Position numbers and translations under genes: made by a program. Positions 52,208-64,000 of a stretch of 64,000 bases of DNA are shown here, piece after piece (within the stretch, counting starts at the first letter, position 1; each line of letters begins with the position of its first letter). This DNA is from Cystobasidiopsis lactophilus (taxonomy: Eukaryota; Basidiomycota; Agaricostilbomycetes; Agaricostilbales; Chionosphaeraceae), in NCBI GenBank assembly GCA_001599975.1, contig BCIO01000006.1, positions 1,235,587-1,299,586 on the forward strand. Direction: 5' to 3'. The notes beneath the pieces were generated by a model. It was given only the letters and a program-made list of their open reading frames with translations, was not told the DNA's origin and made no database searches.

Positions 52208-53517
52208 ATGGCAAGCGTTTCCTACACTTTCAACTTTCCCATTTTCAGCCTAGGGTTCGCCAAGCTGCCCACGCAGACCGCCAGTCCGGGCCAGTTCCCA
52301 AAGCTGGCGGTCGGCTCGTTAATCGAAACGGGCGGCGAGAACTACCTGAGCGTGCTAGGCCTCGCGCCGCCTTCTCGCGGCTCGCAGGACGGGGGATTAC
52401 TGCCTCAAGAGCTGTCCCTGCTGGCCACCGCGCCACACCAGTACCCATGCACCAAAGTCGGTTTCATGCCCGCCCATCAAACCAGCTCTCTATCCCGCGA
52501 TATCATTGCCACGACATCCGACTCGCTAAAGCTGTTTGACCTATACGAAACAACAGACCGACAGAGGGGTGCAGCCGACCCAGGGTGGAGGCTCAACCTC
52601 AGATCCTCGCTGGCAAACGTAAGGCCGTTTCCCATTCCTGCGCATGAAAGTCTCAGCTGAATTCAATTTTGGCCTTGCAGCAATCTAAATCCGACTTTTC
52701 AGCACCACTAACCTCCTTCTCTTGGTCCACCATCGAGCCTTCGCTGATCCTCACCGCCTCCACGAACACGACTGTTACTCTCTGGGACATTTCTCAATCC
52801 TCCGCTGTCACCCAGCTTATAGCGCACGACAAAGAGGTGTACGACGTGGCTTGGCAACCAGGGCCTACAGGGCGCGACATCTTTGCGTCGTGCGGCGCCG
52901 ATGGCAGCGTGCGGATGTTCGACATTCGCTCCCTCGAGCACTCGACCATCCTCTACGAAGCTGCGCCGCCGTCACCCACGACGTCCACTGTTTCCAATGG
53001 CGTGGGGAAAACGGCGCAGCCGACGCCGCTGCTGAGGTTGGCTTTCGACCCCTCCCAGCCTTCAGCGTTGGCGGTCATCCACGACGCCTCCTCGTCCATC
53101 CTGCTCATCGACGTGCGGCAACCCGGCATCCCCGTCGCCGAGTTCAAAGCACACAAAGCAGCGGTCAATGGGATAGCGTGGTCGAACGAGTCGCCAGACT
53201 CCAGCTCGGCCCTGGTGTCGGTGTCGGACGACGGCCTGGCGCTGGTGTGGGACGGCGCGTCGGCGTTCAACACCTCTGTGCCCTCCAACTCTTCCACCCC
53301 GTCCAACAACATGCCGGCTTCCAGCGGTGGGCAACCGGGGGAGAAGGGCTATGGGCACAACAAGTTGCTCAACGTGCCGCCGACCAAGACGGTGCGGGAG
53401 CCCATGCTGGCTTATGAGGCTGGCTCAGAGGTCAACTCGGCCGCGTGGGGAGGGACCAGCCAGTCGGAATGGATTGCGCTAGGGGCAGGGCGGACAGTGA
53501 GAGCTTTACGAGTGTAA
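52208..53517 (+). CDS. WD40 repeat protein (DCAF7/WDR68/AN11 family)
   Basis: Exons 52208-52618 and 52681-53517; 415 aa. The start YTFNFPIFSLGFAK corresponds to the WDR68/AN11 N terminus. Later come TKVGFMPAHQ, the APLTSFSWSTIEPSLILTAS segment, TVTLWDI, AHDKEVYDVAWQP, FASCGADGSVRMFDIR, AVNGIAWS and VSVSDDGLALVWD. These build a seven-bladed propeller. Family members scaffold DYRK-type kinases and Cul4-Ddb1 ubiquitin ligases, mostly in the nucleus. A roughly 50-residue Ser/Pro/Asn-rich insert (FNTSVPSNSSTPSNNMPASS) lies inside the second-last blade, which is longer than in animal homologues. Confidence 0.9.
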
Positions 53518-54548: not shown

Positions 54549-55201
54549 GATTCTGACAGCTCGAAATCGTCGTCGATTTCCAAGCTTGAGATTGCCCCAA
54601 GATGCTGGCTCCCAATTGCCCGCTCTGGCTCGGAATCATGCCCTGGTGCCCACAGCAGGGACGCAGCGGCCGTGGAAGGGCCGCCCAACACCGACACAAG
54701 CGCGGAATGAACTGCCACCCCAAATTTCATGCGGCAATAGAACTTGCCCTTTGGCCCTCTTTGACTGCTATTTGGCTCGCGCTTGTGCCTCTGCTTTGAT
54801 CGAAGAACTGAAGCGAGCAAAGAATTTGCGTGATTGGTCCAGTGTCGCTTCCTGGGCAGCTTGCGGAGCGGTCCAAATGGCCTGCTAGGAGCCAATCTCC
54901 GCTTTAGGCCCTTTCCATGATGATCTTGGTCGAGCAGGTTAGAAAGCCCTGGATATGACCGTGCCCGGGGCTAGTGAAGCTTATTAGGAGACGAGCGAGT
55001 CATTGCCGTTGCCAAACCTACAAACCCCGCATCTTCGCCAATGCTCACTTGGGTGTGTCTCACTGCTATCGTCATGCAGTTTGAGGTGCCGTGCAGAGTG
55101 CCGTTTGCGATCGTCGCATGCCAAACAGCCGCCGATTGTCGCATGCTCAAGAACTGCCGGTCATAAAGTCATCTTGCACCACCAACCACCAATTTGATAG
55201 C
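54549..55201. other. Intergenic stretch before the tandem array
   Basis: This separates the orphan gene (minus) from P1 (plus). An open frame continues left of the orphan gene start to about 54890 and may contain another 5' exon of it. Nothing else was recognised. Confidence 0.4.
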
Positions 55202-56194
55202 ATGAAGATGCATCGCTACTGCACGCGTGACAGGTATGATTACTACTCAGACCGCCTGAAGTTCTCGCCACACTGGGAAGAAGTAGGATTCCCTTCGTTA
55301 CCGCCGCCATATTGGCCTTAAACCTAGTACGCAGATATCAGTTCAAGGCAACGACATCAAAAGATCACCACAGACCAATGACTCGTCCAAATACGCTAGT
55401 GTCTACTTCAAAGCCGCCAACACGCCGTACTGCCTTTTCACAATGTGGCCGCCGTCGAGCGCCCTGGCCCCAATGAACGTCTCGTTGTGGAACAGCACTG
55501 CCAAGGGCCCAGCAAAGTTGATCAGCACGCTGTCTGTGGACCCAGCCTTTGACGCCAAGACGTTCTCTGCGTCGAGAAATGCTAGGGATTTTGAAGATTC
55601 GGAACACGGTCTACACTGTGGTGTCATCCCAGTCAACGGCTCGTATCACCTCAGCCTCAATCAGACTGGCCCGGGCCATTTGGAACTGAAGGGAGTTCAG
55701 TAAGAACGAAATTTCATTCAAATCAATGGCTACAGCATCCGACCGGCCGCTGGGCAAGCAAGCAGATTCGTCCATTGCGACGGGCCCCTAGACTTCATCG
55801 TCATGATGTCCATCTTGGGCTCGCTTCTTGGCCTTCTTTTGCTTGTCGGCGTCATTGATTGCATTCGGACCGCGGCCCGGGAAAGCCGCCGTCATCGACC
55901 AAGACCGGTTCAAGCACCGAGGCGTCCAAGACCGGTCCAAGCACCGAAGCGTCCGGGGACATTTCAGAAGGCTAAGGCCTCCGCTCGTACGTTGACGTGC
56001 CCTTGGCATTGCCCGCAAAATGGCAACTGACCCTTGATTCAGAGCGACTGTACTCGATTGAGACTTCGGAGCCACCGTCTGCAGTCCTTAAAGGTTGGTC
56101 TCATCGTTTCTCGCATTTCAAATGTATTCAGCCTGACTGTATCAATCACACGAGCAGACAGTGGATTGGTGGTCGGGGACAGGTGGCGGATTGA
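55202..56194 (+). CDS. Tandem-array membrane protein P1
   Basis: Exons 55202-55282, 55374-55699, 55766-55986, 56043-56194; 259 aa. First of six tandem paralogues of unknown function. The start (MKMHRYC) precedes LKFSPHWEE, then an ectodomain opening TNDSSKYASVYFK with four N-x-S/T sites and Cys in PYCLFTMWPPSS and LHCGVIPVNG, ending LSLNQTGPGHLELKGVQ. One membrane helix follows (MMSILGSLLGLLLLVGVIDC), then a basic tail with a duplicated RPRPVQAP unit, and RLYSIETSEPPSAVLKG. Topology is probably outside N terminus, cytosolic C terminus. No strong signal peptide is visible. The 3' end is uncertain; I read through to the in-frame stop at 56194. Confidence 0.65.
55899..55952 (+). repeat. Two-copy 27-bp tandem repeat in P1
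   Basis: Units 55899-55925 and 55926-55952 differ at two of 27 positions and encode two copies of a nine-residue Pro/Arg unit in the juxtamembrane cytosolic tail of P1. The other array members lack it, so the duplication is recent and private to this copy. Confidence 0.85.
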
Positions 56195-56893
56195 TCAATT
56201 GCAGGCTAAAGTCTGAATGAGTTGGATGGCCCCAACAGGTGGTTCTAGCGACTGTAAGGCATTCAAGCCATTGACCTACTTGATGAGTCTGACTTATTGC
56301 CCCCAGGAGCTTCGCTCGGTCAAGATTCGACAAATTATCTCCTTTCCTCTCCGTTGTCGCTTCCTCGAGCAAGGTCTTGCACTACCCGGGTCTTCTGTGA
56401 ACGTTTTTGGAAGTCGGCCTTATCAATTTTCACTGTAAAATGTGCTTTTTCCGACTGACGGCCCGACGTCCGTGCTTGAGCCCCTTTGCTTCTTGCTTCC
56501 TGCTGGCCGCGGGCCGCGGGCCTTTCGGCTAGTCATGGCACCCTGCGATGGTTTGAAGACGATCAGAGTGCGTCCGGTCGAATTGTGCTGCCGATCTAAA
56601 TCCCTCAAGCAGCGAGGCCATTTCTGCAGGCTACGCGACATGAGTCAGACCGCCAAACTTTGCTACGGGCGGGTTGCCGGGGCGCTCAATATGTCTCGGC
56701 TTGCTGCTCTCGTCACAGTGCCCCAGCGGTGTGGAGATGTGGGCTCGCACTGCTAACATTGCCCCAGGCCCCCAGCTTGTTCGCAGTCAACGATTTCCCA
56801 TCTCGCTCAACGCCTCTGCTTAGAAATGCCTTGCCATCTCGAAGCCGTGCCTTGGAAGTTCTGGGAAGGCCATTTGTTCCACTTCTCGCCGGG
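56195..56893. other. Array spacer between P1 and P2
   Basis: This holds no recognised gene. A GC-rich doubled GGCCGCG run sits at 56505-56522. An extra 5' exon of P2, matching the first exon of the other copies, could lie here but I could not find one with good splice sites. Confidence 0.4.
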
Positions 56894-57683
56894 ATGGCAA
56901 ACTGTGAGGACGCAATCTTTAAGCACCACATTGTCGGTGCTCAACTAGTGGCGCTCAAGATTACTCCCAAAAACCGCTGGGTTAAAGCCTCACCATACAC
57001 CGATGACCCAAGCCAGTACTCGAGCGCTGTCATCAGAACTCGGACACCGACATATTGCCTTTACACCGTCTGGCCGCCTTCCAGCCAGTTGGCGACTATG
57101 AGCGTTTCCCTATGGAATGTTACCGCAGAAGGGCCACCTCTCCTGGTGAACACGTCCACAGTGGATCCTGCCTTCGACTCCACCTCTTACACTGCTGCGG
57201 CGCCCGCCAACGACTTGGACCCGCCGTTTCGAGCCTTTCAGTGCGGAGTGGTCCCTGCCGACAAAGGCTCTTATCAGCTGAGTTTGAACCAAACTGGACC
57301 AGGACATCTAGAGGTCCGGGGCGTTCAGTACGAGTACGGATTTGTTTGGGTCGAGCCGTGACTCACAAAGCCTGCCGCAGATTTGTACACTGCGCGGCCT
57401 CGTCGGCTTCGACCGCAAAGTTCGTGGCCGTTACCTTCGGCATTCTGGCATTCGGCTTTGCTTTATCACTGCTGGTGAACGCCTGCTGCCTCAGCCCGAC
57501 CATCAGACGACGAATAGCCAAGAATCAAAGCGCATTCAATAACGCGAAAGAGTCAGCCAGTGAGTCGGTTCCTTGGTAGGGCCGTCACGCAGTCGGCTGA
57601 CGACTGCTGTAGGACGACTTTACGCCACAGAGCTTTCGAGACCTGAGGCTGCGTTATTGAGAGGTACGCTCTCTCTTCGCTAA
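56894..57683 (+). CDS. Tandem-array membrane protein P2
   Basis: Exons 56894-57327, 57381-57559, 57613-57683; 227 aa. Closest to P1: PTYCLYTVWPPSSQLATMSV, VDPAFDSTSY, FQCGVVPADKGSYQLSLNQT and GPGHLEVRGVQ, then FVHC and a membrane helix (FVAVTFGILAFGFALSLLVN), then a tail with RRLYATELSRPEAALLR. P2 differs in having no intron at the start of the ectodomain; the start at 56894 is the nearest in-frame ATG and is uncertain. The ectodomain has several N-x-S/T sites (NVTAEG, NTSTVD, NQTGPG). The role is unknown, most likely a plasma-membrane or secretory-pathway surface protein. Confidence 0.6.
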
Positions 57684-58412
57684 TGTAGATCTGCAGTCGA
57701 CCTCTTGGTGCCGCAGCGTCTAGAGCGGCTTATGTTGACAACGGGACCATCGGTGGCCAGTGGCGTCTTGAACAGCTGGGCGCCAAGGTGTAGCAACTCT
57801 TCTTTGGCTTCTAGAATTCTGTATCGTAATTTCAATGTAAAATAAAGACCACCGCATGTCGTTGGCCATCGCCACTCTCTTCCAGCCTGCGCGGCAGGAT
57901 GATTTGTCTTCGTTCCGGCCTCTCCCCCTGCTTGTTTGCTCTCTGGATTCATCAGGACCACCATTTGAGCAACTTGCTTATAAGTCTTGTGCAAGGGGAC
58001 GTCCCCGCTGTCGAGTCGTCGCCGCGTCTTTAAACCTCTGCGTCGGCAAAATCCCTTGGGCAGCTTGTTCATCTGGCGCCCTGGATGCTTTGGACACCCA
58101 TCAGATGACATTGTAGTGACATGTTGTGTCGGGCATCTAGAAGATCACCCACCAGATCAATCTTTCATGAATCAATTCGGCATTCGTTCCCCTGAAAATC
58201 GCTCGCTTGGGACGGAGGATCGTTTGCGCGATCTTCGGCAACTTTGATCTGAATAGACACCGTCACAACATGCAGCGCCAACGGTCTTCTCCGTCCTGGG
58301 TGCATTGCCCCGTGAACCACGACCCGCGCCGAACTTTAAATTGGTCTATCCTTGCGCAGTGATTGTTCTGTTGTATGTTCTGTGGATTCGGCCTTGTTCA
58401 AAGGCATCAGCA
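57684..58412. other. Array spacer between P2 and P3
   Basis: No gene with recognisable splice structure or similarity to the array members was found. It presumably contains the P2 3' UTR and P3 promoter. Confidence 0.4.
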
Positions 58413-59416
58413 ATGTGCCTTCCTGTTCTCTATCATGCCATGTCATCGATCTTTGTCTTTTCGGCCGGCGGATGGCAACATGTAAGCTGTCCATCAGCCT
58501 TTGTCAAATCAGTCCTCTACAAGCGGTTGACAACCTCATCCCAAGGCCAATGACAGTGGCTGGAGCGTCGCATCCATCGCTGCCAACGCCTCTGTGAACA
58601 TTTCGATTCCGACAAGCCTGAATGCCACGACAGCGTGCTTGTACCGCAGCATTTGGAACTCTGTTGACTCGAATGAACTAGCACCCACGACTTTCTCTGT
58701 TTTGAGCAACGGAAGATCTCTTCCAAACGTCTCGATGCTCACCAGCGCCAACTACACGTCAGTAAATTTCACGGATCAACAAGCGGCTGATTTCTTCAGC
58801 TTGTATGACTTCCGCGCGGTCGTCTGTTCGCCATTACCCTATCTGGTCTCTCCTCAGGAAGCAAACTATTCGATGAGCTTGGTACTAGCAAGCGCTGGTC
58901 GGTTTGAAATGTTGGGTGCTGCGTCAGTCTTGTTCTTCTTTGCTGTTCTCAATGAGGAGAGTAAATGAGCTTATTGGACCTCACTTTTGTTGGCAGGTTC
59001 TTTTCGTTTTGTCCACCGGAGCCATCACACCCCGACCATGATAGTTTGGTTTTCTTGACATTGTTAGGCCTTAGTCCCTTGCTCGGACTGTTCGTACTGG
59101 CGCTGCTTGCTCTTTACACGTGCAAGCGACAGAGGGCGAGATCTGGGAGGGGGTCCAAGGTCAAGCGATGCATTGGGTTGGCTTTGGGTAGGTTGCTCAA
59201 CCCCAAGTATTTTGGAATTCTGCTGAAGAGAGCGGCGTGCTCTACAGGACGATCATCCCCTGCGGTCATTCAGGTTCCATCACCTGTGATGTCGGGTGAG
59301 TCACGGCGCACTGTGATGTTCAGCCTGCGCTCAGGCGAATGCCAGCTTCTTTGAACTCGAGTGTGGTCGATGTTCCGCTCCCCCCTCGCAGTTTATCGTA
59401 CGATGCAAGAGTTTGA
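58413..59416 (+). CDS. Tandem-array membrane protein P3
   Basis: Exons 58413-58481, 58546-58922, 58997-59295, 59346-59416; 271 aa. The start MCLPVLYHAMSSIFVFSAGG is shared with P4-P6. A phase-0 intron follows GGWQH, then ANDSGWSVASIAANASVNIS opens the ectodomain. A second Cys lies in RAVVCSPLP, and the domain ends AGRFEMLGAA. After a phase-2 intron comes FFSFCPPEPS and one helix (LVFLTLLGLSPLLGLFVLAL), then a basic cytosolic tail (YTCKRQRARSGRGSKVKR). The last exon encodes LNSSVVDVPLPPRSLSYDAR, a degenerate version of the PRDPASD-x-RM end of P4 and P5. The tail before it is longer than in the others and may hide one more intron. Confidence 0.72.
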
Positions 59417-59885
59417 GCTCAAGTACAGGGTAGTATTGAGGCTTGAAACATTGCAACTTTGTAAACCGCCACCAGGCTTTGAACTGCGCAGATCAATTTG
59501 CCAGCGAGTCTCACCCACCTTTCTTCCCTGGCTCCTTTGGACTTACTCTGCCAGGCTCTTCAACTTCATGACAAACCATCTAGACCGCGTTGCTTGCGTG
59601 AACTACAGTATTCTTCTGGACGGCGTCGCGGAAATTAGGCAGGATCAGCGGTCTCCTCGTAGCCTGGCAGCCGGCAGCCGTTTCGATCGCCTCTCCATTG
59701 TCTCGCAATGTTTGAATGTTGAATGACGGCACACAGCGTGTCTCGCCGTGGCTAGGTTAACGGTCGTGGTGCCTTCCCCGTCCAACCTTGATTGCTTCTG
59801 ATCACTCTAAGACCGTACTTTCGCACTTGTCTCCTCCCAGCTCTCTTATCCGCTGTCACTGAACAAAGGACGGTCATAAGAGGCC
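59417..59885. other. Array spacer between P3 and P4
   Basis: No gene or repeat was recognised. Short frames here do not match the array proteins. Confidence 0.4.
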
Positions 59886-60856
59886 ATGGGGTGCTGGCCA
59901 ACCTTGTTTCATGCCCTTACAAGCGCCATATTCACCTACGCGCCAGGCGGATGGCAAAATGTCACTATCATCTTTTTTCTGATTCTCTTGTTCTCTGTCT
60001 GAGGCAGAGAGAGCAGAGCAACGACAGTTCCTGGAGCGTGGCGTCAATCTCACCCACTGCGGTTGTCACTATCCGTGTCCCAACTTTTGCCACGACGGTT
60101 TGTGCCTATGCAAAAGGCATCGAGCGCCTCGAGAAAGATGAAATGGCACCAATGCAGCTTTCTATCTACAATCACTCCATCTTGATTCCGAACTCGTCCG
60201 TGACGCTAGACCCGGGCTTCAACTCAGCACATGCCAAGGACGACCACGCTACCCAGTTCTTCGACAAGCAGTATCTAGTCAAACCCCTCTTCTGCCAATC
60301 TTTCAGCTTTCCCAACGGGCTCAACGGGACCGCATACACACTTCAGCTCAGCCAGGCAGGTGCCGGCCGCTATGAGTTGCTTGGCATTGCGTCCGTCTCT
60401 CTTGAGGCGCCAAAACCACAACACTGCTGACGACACAGGGGCTCAGGAGCTTCACCTGTAAACCTGACATCTTCAATGCCGCCCATTTTCGCCGGGGTGT
60501 TGCCATCATTATCAGCAGTCTCTTTGGCGCCGCCATTTTGTTCGTTCTGTTGGTCTCTTGGTGCGAGCGTCAACAAAGGCTGCGCCGAACTGGGGAACTG
60601 GGCTACTTTCGGCGCTCAATAGCATCCATGAGTAGGTCCTCAGCCTGTTGTCCCTTTTGGCTTCATTTTCAATGGGCCAGCAGAACGGATGTGGCGCCCG
60701 CCACCCCAGCAGCCGCAGACCGTTTTGCCTATGTCGAGTGCGTCTCTCTTGCTTCTTTCCATGGCAGACTTTGTCTTGACGCAAGGCGGGACAGGTTCAG
60801 CTTCTACCATTTCTGCCTACCTGCCGCGCGACCCAGCGTCGGACAGACGGATGTGA
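59886..60856 (+). CDS. Tandem-array membrane protein P4
   Basis: Exons 59886-59960, 60017-60390, 60447-60631, 60684-60737, 60786-60856; 252 aa. N terminus MGCWPTLFHALTSAIFTYAP-GGWQN, then SNDSSWSVASISPTAVVTIR, TTVCAYAKGIERL, LSIYNHSILIPNSSVTLDPG, LVKPLFCQSF and GAGRYELLGIA. The transmembrane exon reads SFTCKPD, then GVAIIISSLFGAAILFVLLV and a basic stop-transfer (CERQQRLRR). The cytosolic end is KRMWRPPPQQPQTVLPMS plus LPRDPASDRRM. Five N-glycosylation sites are visible. Intron phases (0, 2, 1, 1) equal those of P5. Function is unknown; two conserved ectodomain cysteines could form one disulfide. Confidence 0.78.
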
Positions 60857-61549
60857 TTGGAGGTTCCCACTTGTAGAAATTGATTAGCTTGCCAATGTCC
60901 AGAATCTCGAAGTTATCGAGGACCTGCATTGCGTCGCCGATGAGTGGCGGGCCGGCACTCTCCGCGAAGCCTCTCTTGTTCGAGCACGAAGACTTCCTCT
61001 ATTGCTCACGCCGGACTTCGCTTGCCTTTTTGAGAAGTAGAAGTGGCCACGGGAAGACTGCTTAGCACAGTCAGCTGCCCAGACCCGAGCAAAGATTCAG
61101 GCAAGCCTCAAAGTCAAAGTCTCTTGGACTGTCGGAAGTCGCTCGCTCGCCGGCTGCGTTTCGACGAGACCAGCGATGCTCATGCCCTCTAGTCACCGAA
61201 AGAAGACCAGTCGTGGCTGCTCTTTGTGGCTGTAGCTGGCAGAATGATGCACACATGGCGGCATCACTTGTGCGCCCTCCCGACCCAATTGGTCTCGTGC
61301 TCGCTTGTCGCCTGCTCTCTGCGCTTAAGGTCACGTCTGTCGCTTCTTTCTGATCCCAAGTGTCATGTGTATCGATCGCTGTGGTCTGACATGATGCCAC
61401 ATTTCCCGTGAAAAAGCGCCACCTCGCGCCGCCGACTTTCCTAACGGCTGCCCTATACAAACCGTCTTCCTCTCTTGCTCCCGACCAGCGATCTTCTCTC
61501 TTCGAGGCTCTTCAACCCAAGCCCTAATCGTCTTTGCACAACCACAGCA
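60857..61549. other. Array spacer between P4 and P5
   Basis: No gene was recognised. The right end is CT-rich just before the P5 start, as is common in fungal promoters. Confidence 0.4.
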
Positions 61550-62503
61550 ATGGTCTGCTTGCCCACCCTTTACCACGCCCTCTCTCCTCTCTTTGCTCTC
61601 TCTCCGGGCGGCTGGCAGAATGTAGGTCGCCCAACGGCTTCTTCCTCGATTATCGTTTGGATTCTGAAAGGAGGAACAGACGAACGACAGCGCCTGGAGT
61701 GTTGCTTCTACCTCACCCAACGCCTCCGCTAACATCACGGTGCCTCCCCACACGTGGACGGTCTGTGGCTACTCGAAGGCAGTCGACCGCCCGGCGAAGA
61801 ACCAGCTAGCTCCAGTCCAGCTTTCTGTCTTCAACAGCTCCGGCTTGCTGTCCAACCGGACCACCCACTTGAAGCCCGGCTTCGACTCGGACAATGTCAA
61901 GGAGGAGCACGCCCACGGCTTTTTCCACGAGCAGAACTTGGGGAAGGCCATCTTTTGCCAGACGTTCCCGACCAACGAAAGCGCCTACACCCTCGAGCTG
62001 AAGCAAATGGGCCCCGGCCGTTTCGAGCTGGCTGGCATTGCGTACGGTTTTTGTCACTTCTTCCCTAATCTTTCACTTATGTTCTAATATTATCAGCTGC
62101 TTCTCCTGCAAGCCATACTACGGGCTTTCAGTGGGGGCTGTGATCGCCATTGCCACCGTGCCCTCGATTGCGGTCGGTGCCCTGTCCCTTTGGTGGTTTT
62201 CCTACAACCAACACAAAAAGGAGCGGCGTGCAAGAGGTGAAGCTGGCCATTTGGAACGAGCGGTCTCGAGTACGAGTAAGTGTCCAAGCGCATTGTCTTC
62301 TCCTCAGCTCCCACTGAACTAGGCATCGCAGAACGGCTCTACGCCAAGCCGCCCCGAATGCCGCCCACCATCTTGCCCATATCTAGTGAGTCTCACTGTC
62401 ACCTCCAAGCCCGACTTGTTTGACTTGCGGATCCTCAGCCTCGGCATCGAGCGATCCTGAGTTTCCCTTCCCTCGCGATCCGGCGTCGGATACGAGGATG
62501 TGA
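61550..62503 (+). CDS. Tandem-array membrane protein P5
   Basis: Exons 61550-61621, 61680-62041, 62097-62275, 62332-62385, 62439-62503; 243 aa. This copy shows the family most clearly: MVCLPTLYHALSPLFALSPG-GWQN, TNDSAWSVASTSPNASANIT, TVCGYSKAVD, LAPVQLSVFNSSGLLSNRTT, LKPGFDSDN, AIFCQTFPTNESAYTLELKQ and MGPGRFELAGIA. The membrane exon has CFSCKPYYGLSVGAVIAIAT and a helix through VGALSLWWF. The cytosolic part is basic (KKERRARGE), then KRLYAKPPRMPPTILPIS and FPFPRDPASDTRM at the end. The ILP-S and PRDPASD motifs recur in the other copies and may be docking or sorting sites; that is inference. Confidence 0.8.
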
Positions 62504-63144
62504 TTTGGACATTGTATTCCTAACCTTGTTTTTTTGGATTCGTGTGCTGCAATTGTCGACCGCCACTGTCGTTTTCGGAGTGGCGAGCTCTTGAGAGGCC
62601 CGCTTGCTCAAGACTTTCCGTGCCGACCAACTGAGATCTGCACAAACATGGCTTGCATCTCATCGTATTTGATTGTTTCTGAGAAGCAATGTGGCGATTC
62701 TGGCTGTTGAAAACACCTTGCGGCCTGAAAAGTGCTCTCGAATTCGATGCAGGCCAGGAACCGGCGCCTTTCCGTGGCTCAGCTTCCGCACCCAATGCGT
62801 CTCACAGCGTCTTCTACAATGGATTTATAACCATAAGCCGTGAATGGCATGACTGGATGGACCTTCGACCCTGCGACGTTCCTCTGGAGCGGGACCTGGC
62901 CCTTCAGACTGATCTGCTTCTCTCTGCTTCATGTTGCTCTAGCGATTCCGCATGGACATCAGTTTCTTATCGACGGCTGTTCTTTGTGCCGTGTTTCCCG
63001 TGAAAGCGGTGGAGTCATCCTTTCTTGCGGCGTTCGCTAACGGCCGCGGTTTAAAAGCCACTGTTCTTCTCTTGTCTCTGCTCAACGATTTACTCGCCAC
63101 ACTCGTCCTCGTTTCATCACCAAGACTGTCATCTATCGGCCACG
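62504..63144. other. Array spacer between P5 and P6
   Basis: No array copy or other gene was recognised here. A TTTAAAA run at about 63049 could serve as a TATA-like element for P6. Confidence 0.4.
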
Positions 63145-63986
63145 ATGCTCTGTGGCCCAGTTCTCTTTCATGCCCTCTCCAGCGTCTTCATCTACTCGCT
63201 TGGCGGCTGGCGAAATGTGAGCCGTTTGATCCTGGGTTCGTTCCCGCACTAAACATGAAGCAGACGAATGACAGCGTTTGGAGTGTGGCCTCTGTTCTGC
63301 CCAATGCCTCGGTGACCATCCAGCTTCCGCCAAACGTCTCAACTGTTTGCGCCTATGCCAACGGCTTGAACCCAATCGAGCCGGAACACCTAGCGCCTGT
63401 GCAGCTCACGGTTTTCAACGACACGATGCTGCTGCCCAACGAGACGCAGCTGCTCAACCCCAACTTCATTTCGGCTAACGCCAACAACTACAACGCATCG
63501 CTCTTCTTCTATCGGCAGCACACCCTCCGCGTCATCTTCTGTGAGAATCTGCCTCTGAATACCAGCAACGTTTCCATTCAGCTGTCCCAACTCGGATCTG
63601 GCCAATTCGACCTGTCTGGCATTGCGTGCGTCTTGTTGCCTTCCCTTTCATCCCTTCGCTTACCTTGCCATTCTCAGTGTCTTCTCTTGCCCTGTACCGG
63701 TCTCCGCGAACAGCAAGCCTTCTAAGCCTGGCAAAGAGTGGCTCGCCGCCGTCATCTTCGGCGCAGTGATTGGCGCTGTCGTGCTCTGGGTGATCGTCGC
63801 CCGCTTCCGCGAGTGCTACAAGGCGGAGCGTGCAAAGGGGAACATTGGCTGCTTTGGCCGCACATGCGCTTCGATCTGTACGCCTTTCCCCTTTTCCACC
63901 CATTCGGTTCATTTAAGCTCACAGAGATCTCGCAGGCTACCTTTGCTCTAGGAAGCCCAAGGAGGAAACCATCTTGCCCTTATCAA
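63145..63986 (+). CDS. Tandem-array membrane protein P6, 3' partial
   Basis: Exons seen: 63145-63216, 63264-63625, 63678-63877, 63935-63986; the last exon lies beyond the window. N terminus MLCGPVLFHALSSVFIYSLG-GWRN, then TNDSVWSVASVLPNASVTIQ, STVCAYANGLNPIEPEHLAP, VQLTVFNDTMLLPNETQLLN, VIFCENLPLNTSNVSIQLSQ and GSGQFDLSGIA. After the phase-2 intron comes AVFSCPVP, a spacer (SKPSKPGKEW) and a helix (LAAVIFGAVIGAVVLWVIVA), then CYKAERAKGNIGCFGR and a short exon ending KEETILPLS with a GTGAGT donor. Intron phases match P5. At least seven N-glycosylation sites make it the most heavily marked copy. Confidence 0.76.
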
Positions 63987-64000
63987 GTGAGTCCGTTCGA

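Follow-up and report, generated by a model that had tools for sequence, protein, structure and literature searches.

A tandem array of related genes for putative single-pass membrane glycoproteins in Cystobasidiopsis lactophilus

A stretch of 64,000 nucleotides of Cystobasidiopsis lactophilus DNA (here called the window; G000:C6:1235587-1299586, within an assembly of 22.1 Mb in 8 contigs) was found to hold an array of six intact plus-strand genes, g1 to g6, an array that starts at position 55202, ends 108 bases beyond the window and lies about 470 kb from the closer end of the contig. A seventh copy, g7, was located elsewhere on the same contig. At the level of sequence, the shared gene plan, an ectodomain rich in N-x-S/T sequons, three shared cysteines, a single membrane helix with a basic stretch behind it, and a C-terminal V or M are shown or strongly supported. 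We favour, at about even chance, the reading that these genes form a small, old, lineage-restricted family of single-pass membrane glycoproteins with the N terminus outside (N-out), which grew by tandem duplication and supplies a membrane-tethered putative binding module.

Gene models were hand-built from GT-AG splice sites; those of g1, g3 and g4 also used the frames of the conserved exons (Table 1). Each of the six array genes was resolved into five exons with intron phases 0, 2, 1, 1, introns of 47-91 bases, no internal stop and a product of 245-251 amino acids, in agreement with an earlier note on this DNA, which had described six plus-strand genes on one plan with kept intron phases. Conserved frames and phases steered the choice of some acceptors, so the phase agreement in the tails of g1, g3 and g4 is in part a product of the modelling, and the tail models are less certain than those of the ectodomains. 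Exon 1 encodes a short N terminus, exon 2 the ectodomain common to the family (108-125 residues), exon 3 the last shared cysteine, the helix and the basic stretch, and exons 4-5 the remaining tail.

When g5 and the ectodomains of g2, g3, g4 and g6 were used as tblastn queries, the only matches at E<=1e-3 in 104 kb were the six array genes (for example g2 to g1, 2.6e-40). The array had been said to leave the window at its right edge, which is true of the final 108 bases of g6; the 40 kb to the right of the window held no family member by the same tblastn queries and threshold, nor by a hidden Markov model (HMM) of all six genes, and a longer array in that direction was therefore rejected. Copies counted genome-wide added one lone gene, g7 (G000:C6:219698-220655), 1.07 Mb from the array, which was detected at E 6.1e-5 with the g6 query, 0.004 with the g5 query and 1.8e-9 with the ectodomain HMM. 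It has five readable, intact exons with phases 0, 2, 1, 1, its final acceptors allowing several choices, and its ectodomain is 23% identical to that of g4. Whole-genome protein searches with each of the seven as query gave a total of seven copies, a lower bound; distant matches on contigs C1, C2, C4 and C5 (E 0.03-0.6) were taken as chance.

The topology was read from sequons, cysteines and hydrophobicity. Ectodomain sequons numbered 5, 3, 8, 4, 6, 8 and 2 for g1 to g7, a total of 36 over the seven ectodomains compared with 10.9±2.9 in 5000 shuffles, none of which reached 36, so that the many N-x-S/T sites previously remarked upon are a true enrichment; the tails of g1 to g7 carry 0, 2, 1, 0, 0, 0 and 0. 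Three cysteines are common to all seven proteins: the ectodomain pair already recognised, 62-64 residues apart, and a third directly in front of the helix, where two conserved cysteines had been counted. Counted from the last residue of the exon-2 domain, the helix core begins after 11-23 residues; its Kyte-Doolittle score over 19 residues is 2.0-2.9, and the next 15 residues hold 3-5 K/R, as expected of the single-pass protein with a basic stop-transfer and a sequon-rich N-side ectodomain that had been proposed. Because the sequons lie in the ectodomain and the helix is followed by the K/R stretch, the arrangement speaks for an ectodomain facing the lumen of the endoplasmic reticulum (ER) or the outside.

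Behind the helix core 64-80 residues remain, ending AKV, ARV, RRM, TRM, GRV or NMV, with V as the last residue in five of the seven proteins and M in two. The (I/V)LP(I/M/L)S motif and the PRDPAxDxR(M/V) end, described as part of the common plan (the end where complete), are present in g4-g6 (3/6 genes); g3 ends RSLSYDARV, and g1 and g2 end WR(I/L)(D/E)QL(Q/G)AKV. The motif that closes the ectodomain is likewise looser than claimed (FDLSGIA in g6, FEMLGAA in g3). At the other terminus, signal peptides were assessed by hydrophobicity alone: the best nine-residue values were 1.53-1.76 for g3-g6, 1.13 for g7, 0.48 for g2 and -1.06 for g1, whereas two p24 proteins encoded in this genome reached 2.94 and 3.32. 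These N termini are at best weak signal peptides; either the true first exons have been missed, or the membrane helix is a reverse signal-anchor, a role which it may itself serve in some copies. Upstream of g1, at window 55041-55085, an ATG opens a hydrophobic stretch (MLTWVCLTAIVMQFE) that could be an alternative first exon encoding a signal peptide.

The view that no known domain is evident was borne out, for Pfam gave no significant match to g5 and the raw open frames of g2, g3 and g4, to the seven ectodomains, to the six full proteins or to g7. Weak Pfam matches involved one member each and were below cut-offs where shown (best, MAGUK_N_PEST at 0.0092, with the ectodomains; others, Transferase, LapA_dom, Flg_new, DUF7942, MitoNEET_N and Sensor). 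Of the five matches that g5 drew from PDB sequences at E<=10, the best stood at 0.039 and four were to astrovirus capsid proteins, covering residues 15-54; the ectodomain profile drew none. Among 5.8 billion proteins, g5 drew 1195 candidates with none at E<=10, and the six-protein alignment drew 7998 scored candidates without a match. A control from the neighbouring WD40 (DCAF7-like) gene (window 52648-53511) gave 2026 matches in the same proteins; among the best 120 of these, the nearest named included Sporobolomyces, Microbotryomycetes, Atractiella and rust fungi at 43-49%, with Mucoromycota nearly level, and three more matches stood at 59-61% over 88-97% of the query. The control thus reached fungi, none of the named ones close, so that a family evolving fast might escape such a search; the orphan status is weak evidence. 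A literature search for the family or its gene plan found nothing on either.

Comparison of the copies bears directly on the proposal that they form a variable recognition or adhesion set (self/non-self, mating, host contact), in which differing ectodomains would read different partners and report via a common tail. A tandem family with glycosylated ectodomains does exist, as that proposal requires, and the PRDPAxD end is shared by three of the six; the pattern of divergence, on which it chiefly leaned, is the opposite of diverging ectodomains on a constant cytosolic tail. Ectodomain identity exceeded that of helix plus tail in 14/15 array pairs and in 19/21 pairs with g7 included (exceptions g1-g3 and g3-g7, both near 17-20%), and exceeded that of exons 4-5 alone in 13/15 and 18/21, the exceptions being g3-g7 together with g4-g5 and g5-g6. 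Since both of the latter pairs belong to the PRDPAxD-end subgroup, a shared tail is to be seen only there. The proportion of nonsynonymous differences (pN) was below that of synonymous differences (pS) in 42 of 42 comparisons, with pS at 0.61-0.85, so that the copies appear to be old and under constraint; the comparison gave no sign of diversifying selection or recent diversification among the seven copies of one genome, where synonymous divergence near saturation leaves it little power. The closest pairs share 47-52% ectodomain identity, and the array DNA compared with itself yielded a single weak match, between g4 and g5 (391 bases at 63%), plus two only 26-33 bases long; with DNA similarity nearly gone and pS this high, recent duplication was rejected. 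Matches to STE3-type pheromone receptors lie at G000:C4:1994434-1995499 and C1:2329659-2330000, on other contigs than the array on C6, and linkage to an STE3 mating receptor was rejected (the homeodomain locus was not sought). With only seven copies found, none of them recent, and ectodomains that do not race ahead of the tail, we consider a diversifying recognition set distinctly unlikely. The copies could instead be the decaying remains of a formerly larger family, given that three show no clear signal peptide as modelled and that g3 and g7 sit on long branches of a tree whose only firm support is for grouping g1 with g2; yet reading frames and splice sites are readable intact in seven of seven and pN stays below pS in every comparison, which makes decay scarcely credible.

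The remaining alternatives turn on the ectodomain, which, as modelled from exon 2 alone without the exon-1 residues, is all-beta with one helix for both g4 and g5 (predicted local distance difference test, pLDDT, 74-75) and is predicted to be a compact beta-sandwich of the jelly-roll/GOLD type. In the first such model the best structural neighbour was p24/TMED, whose members are type I and likewise N-out with one helix and two similarly spaced cysteines, in a luminal domain of about 100 residues that is a beta-sandwich, as is predicted here. Early-secretory cargo adaptors acting like p24, with a GOLD-like luminal domain that picks cargo and a tail that bears ER-exit information, are a rival reading that we regard as unlikely. 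In p24 proteins a coiled coil of some 50 residues separates domain and helix, and a short tail carries FF/KK-type signals; the array family has many sequons, a gap of 11-23 residues that is too short for a long coiled coil, and a tail of 64-80 residues. No full protein of the seven matched EMP24_GP25L (PF01105) in Pfam at E<=1, and hhalign, run on shallow profiles built from seven and four sequences, gave a probability of 0.36 percent and a score of 13.3, which is within noise, as one of 40 column shuffles reached 14.5. The same PF01105 model found ordinary p24 genes at four other places in the genome, and membership of p24 itself was rejected on these three grounds. To the eight-strand jelly-roll domains of the galactose-binding-like kind (CBM35, CBM51 and relatives) the likeness is one of predicted fold, not decisive, with no sequence match and no identified ligand site; basidiomycete membrane proteins in which a jelly-roll ectodomain at the N terminus precedes a helix and a tail presumably share the same order of parts, and g7 has a YSP-like start resembling theirs. 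Sensors of cell-wall or surface stress of the Wsc/Mid2 kind are also fungal single-pass surface glycoproteins with a basic juxtamembrane stretch, but the ectodomain of those sensors is a long flexible rod, unlike the compact beta domain predicted here, and Pfam matched none of the seven proteins to WSC or Mid2 at E<=1; we hold this to be very improbable. A more specific proposal, that of an undescribed fungal family in which a heavily glycosylated, lectin-like beta-sandwich crosses the ER membrane by a reverse signal-anchor, without a classical signal peptide, and tandem copies divide the labour of binding wall glycans or partner cells at the surface, is in our estimation quite doubtful.

Under the favoured reading of an old family of tethered glycoproteins, the two ectodomain cysteines would form an intradomain disulfide and the juxtamembrane third may link two chains. 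According to one study, a V at the end is more frequent than expected among type I membrane proteins of human and mouse, without guaranteeing fast ER exit (PMC3779271); the terminal V of five of the seven proteins may aid ER exit. Tethered to the membrane, the protein would serve as a binding module on the cell surface or along the secretory pathway; its ligand, judged from fold class and topology, would most likely be a glycan or a protein partner, and the copies may be specialised for ligand or growth condition.

Around the array, TAACGG(C/T) was noticed at window 59758, 61442 and 63038, 107-128 bases upstream of the ATG in g4, g5 and g6, and also about 81 bases upstream of g7; the three window sites are among six TAACGGY sites that the window holds on either strand, a weak observation as they were selected post hoc. 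The upstream regions of g5 and g6 have TTTCCCGTGAAA in common. In the stretch to the right of the window (L002), a gene adjoining g6 from position 578 and starting MSVAGYCILAVGLAFLSFLLILLCTHYKR consists, as read by eye, of a membrane helix and a proline-rich tail without an ectodomain, and the family HMM did not match it; the gene at L002:1621-3094 looked STN1-like by eye, with two open stretches that gave no Pfam match at E<=1e-5. Other neighbouring genes include ones of GH31, zinc-type alcohol dehydrogenase, HAM1-like, Med1-like and P450 type.

Table 1. Array genes and modelled ectodomains, in window positions (aa, amino acids; pTM, predicted template modelling score)
Feature	Position	Strand	Exons	Length	Remark
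g1	55202-56216	+	55202-55282, 55374-55699, 55766-55986, 56043-56093, 56158-56216	245 aa	N terminus of model not hydrophobic
g2	56826-57793	+	56826-56903, 56960-57327, 57381-57559, 57613-57663, 57717-57793	250 aa	
g3	58413-59416	+	58413-58481, 58546-58922, 58997-59187, 59248-59295, 59346-59416	251 aa	
g4	59886-60856	+	59886-59960, 60017-60390, 60447-60631, 60681-60737, 60795-60856	250 aa	
g5	61550-62503	+	61550-61621, 61680-62041, 62097-62275, 62323-62385, 62439-62503	246 aa	
g6	63145-64108	+	63145-63216, 63264-63625, 63678-63877, 63936-63986; exon 5 at 44-108 bases past window end	249 aa	
g5 ectodomain	61680..62039	+	exon 2		predicted all-beta plus one helix; pLDDT 73.9, pTM 0.68
g4 ectodomain	60017..60388	+	exon 2		predicted all-beta plus one helix; pLDDT 75.1, pTM 0.69

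As it stands, the array represents an unnamed family in a poorly sampled fungal lineage and not evidence for a variable recognition system. Orphan membrane-protein families are a blind spot of fungal genomes, and the seven genes described here, all readable and all on one exon plan, are well suited to finding out what a family of this sort does. Should the ectodomain prove to bind glycans, the family would represent a new type of fungal lectin, one tethered to the membrane.
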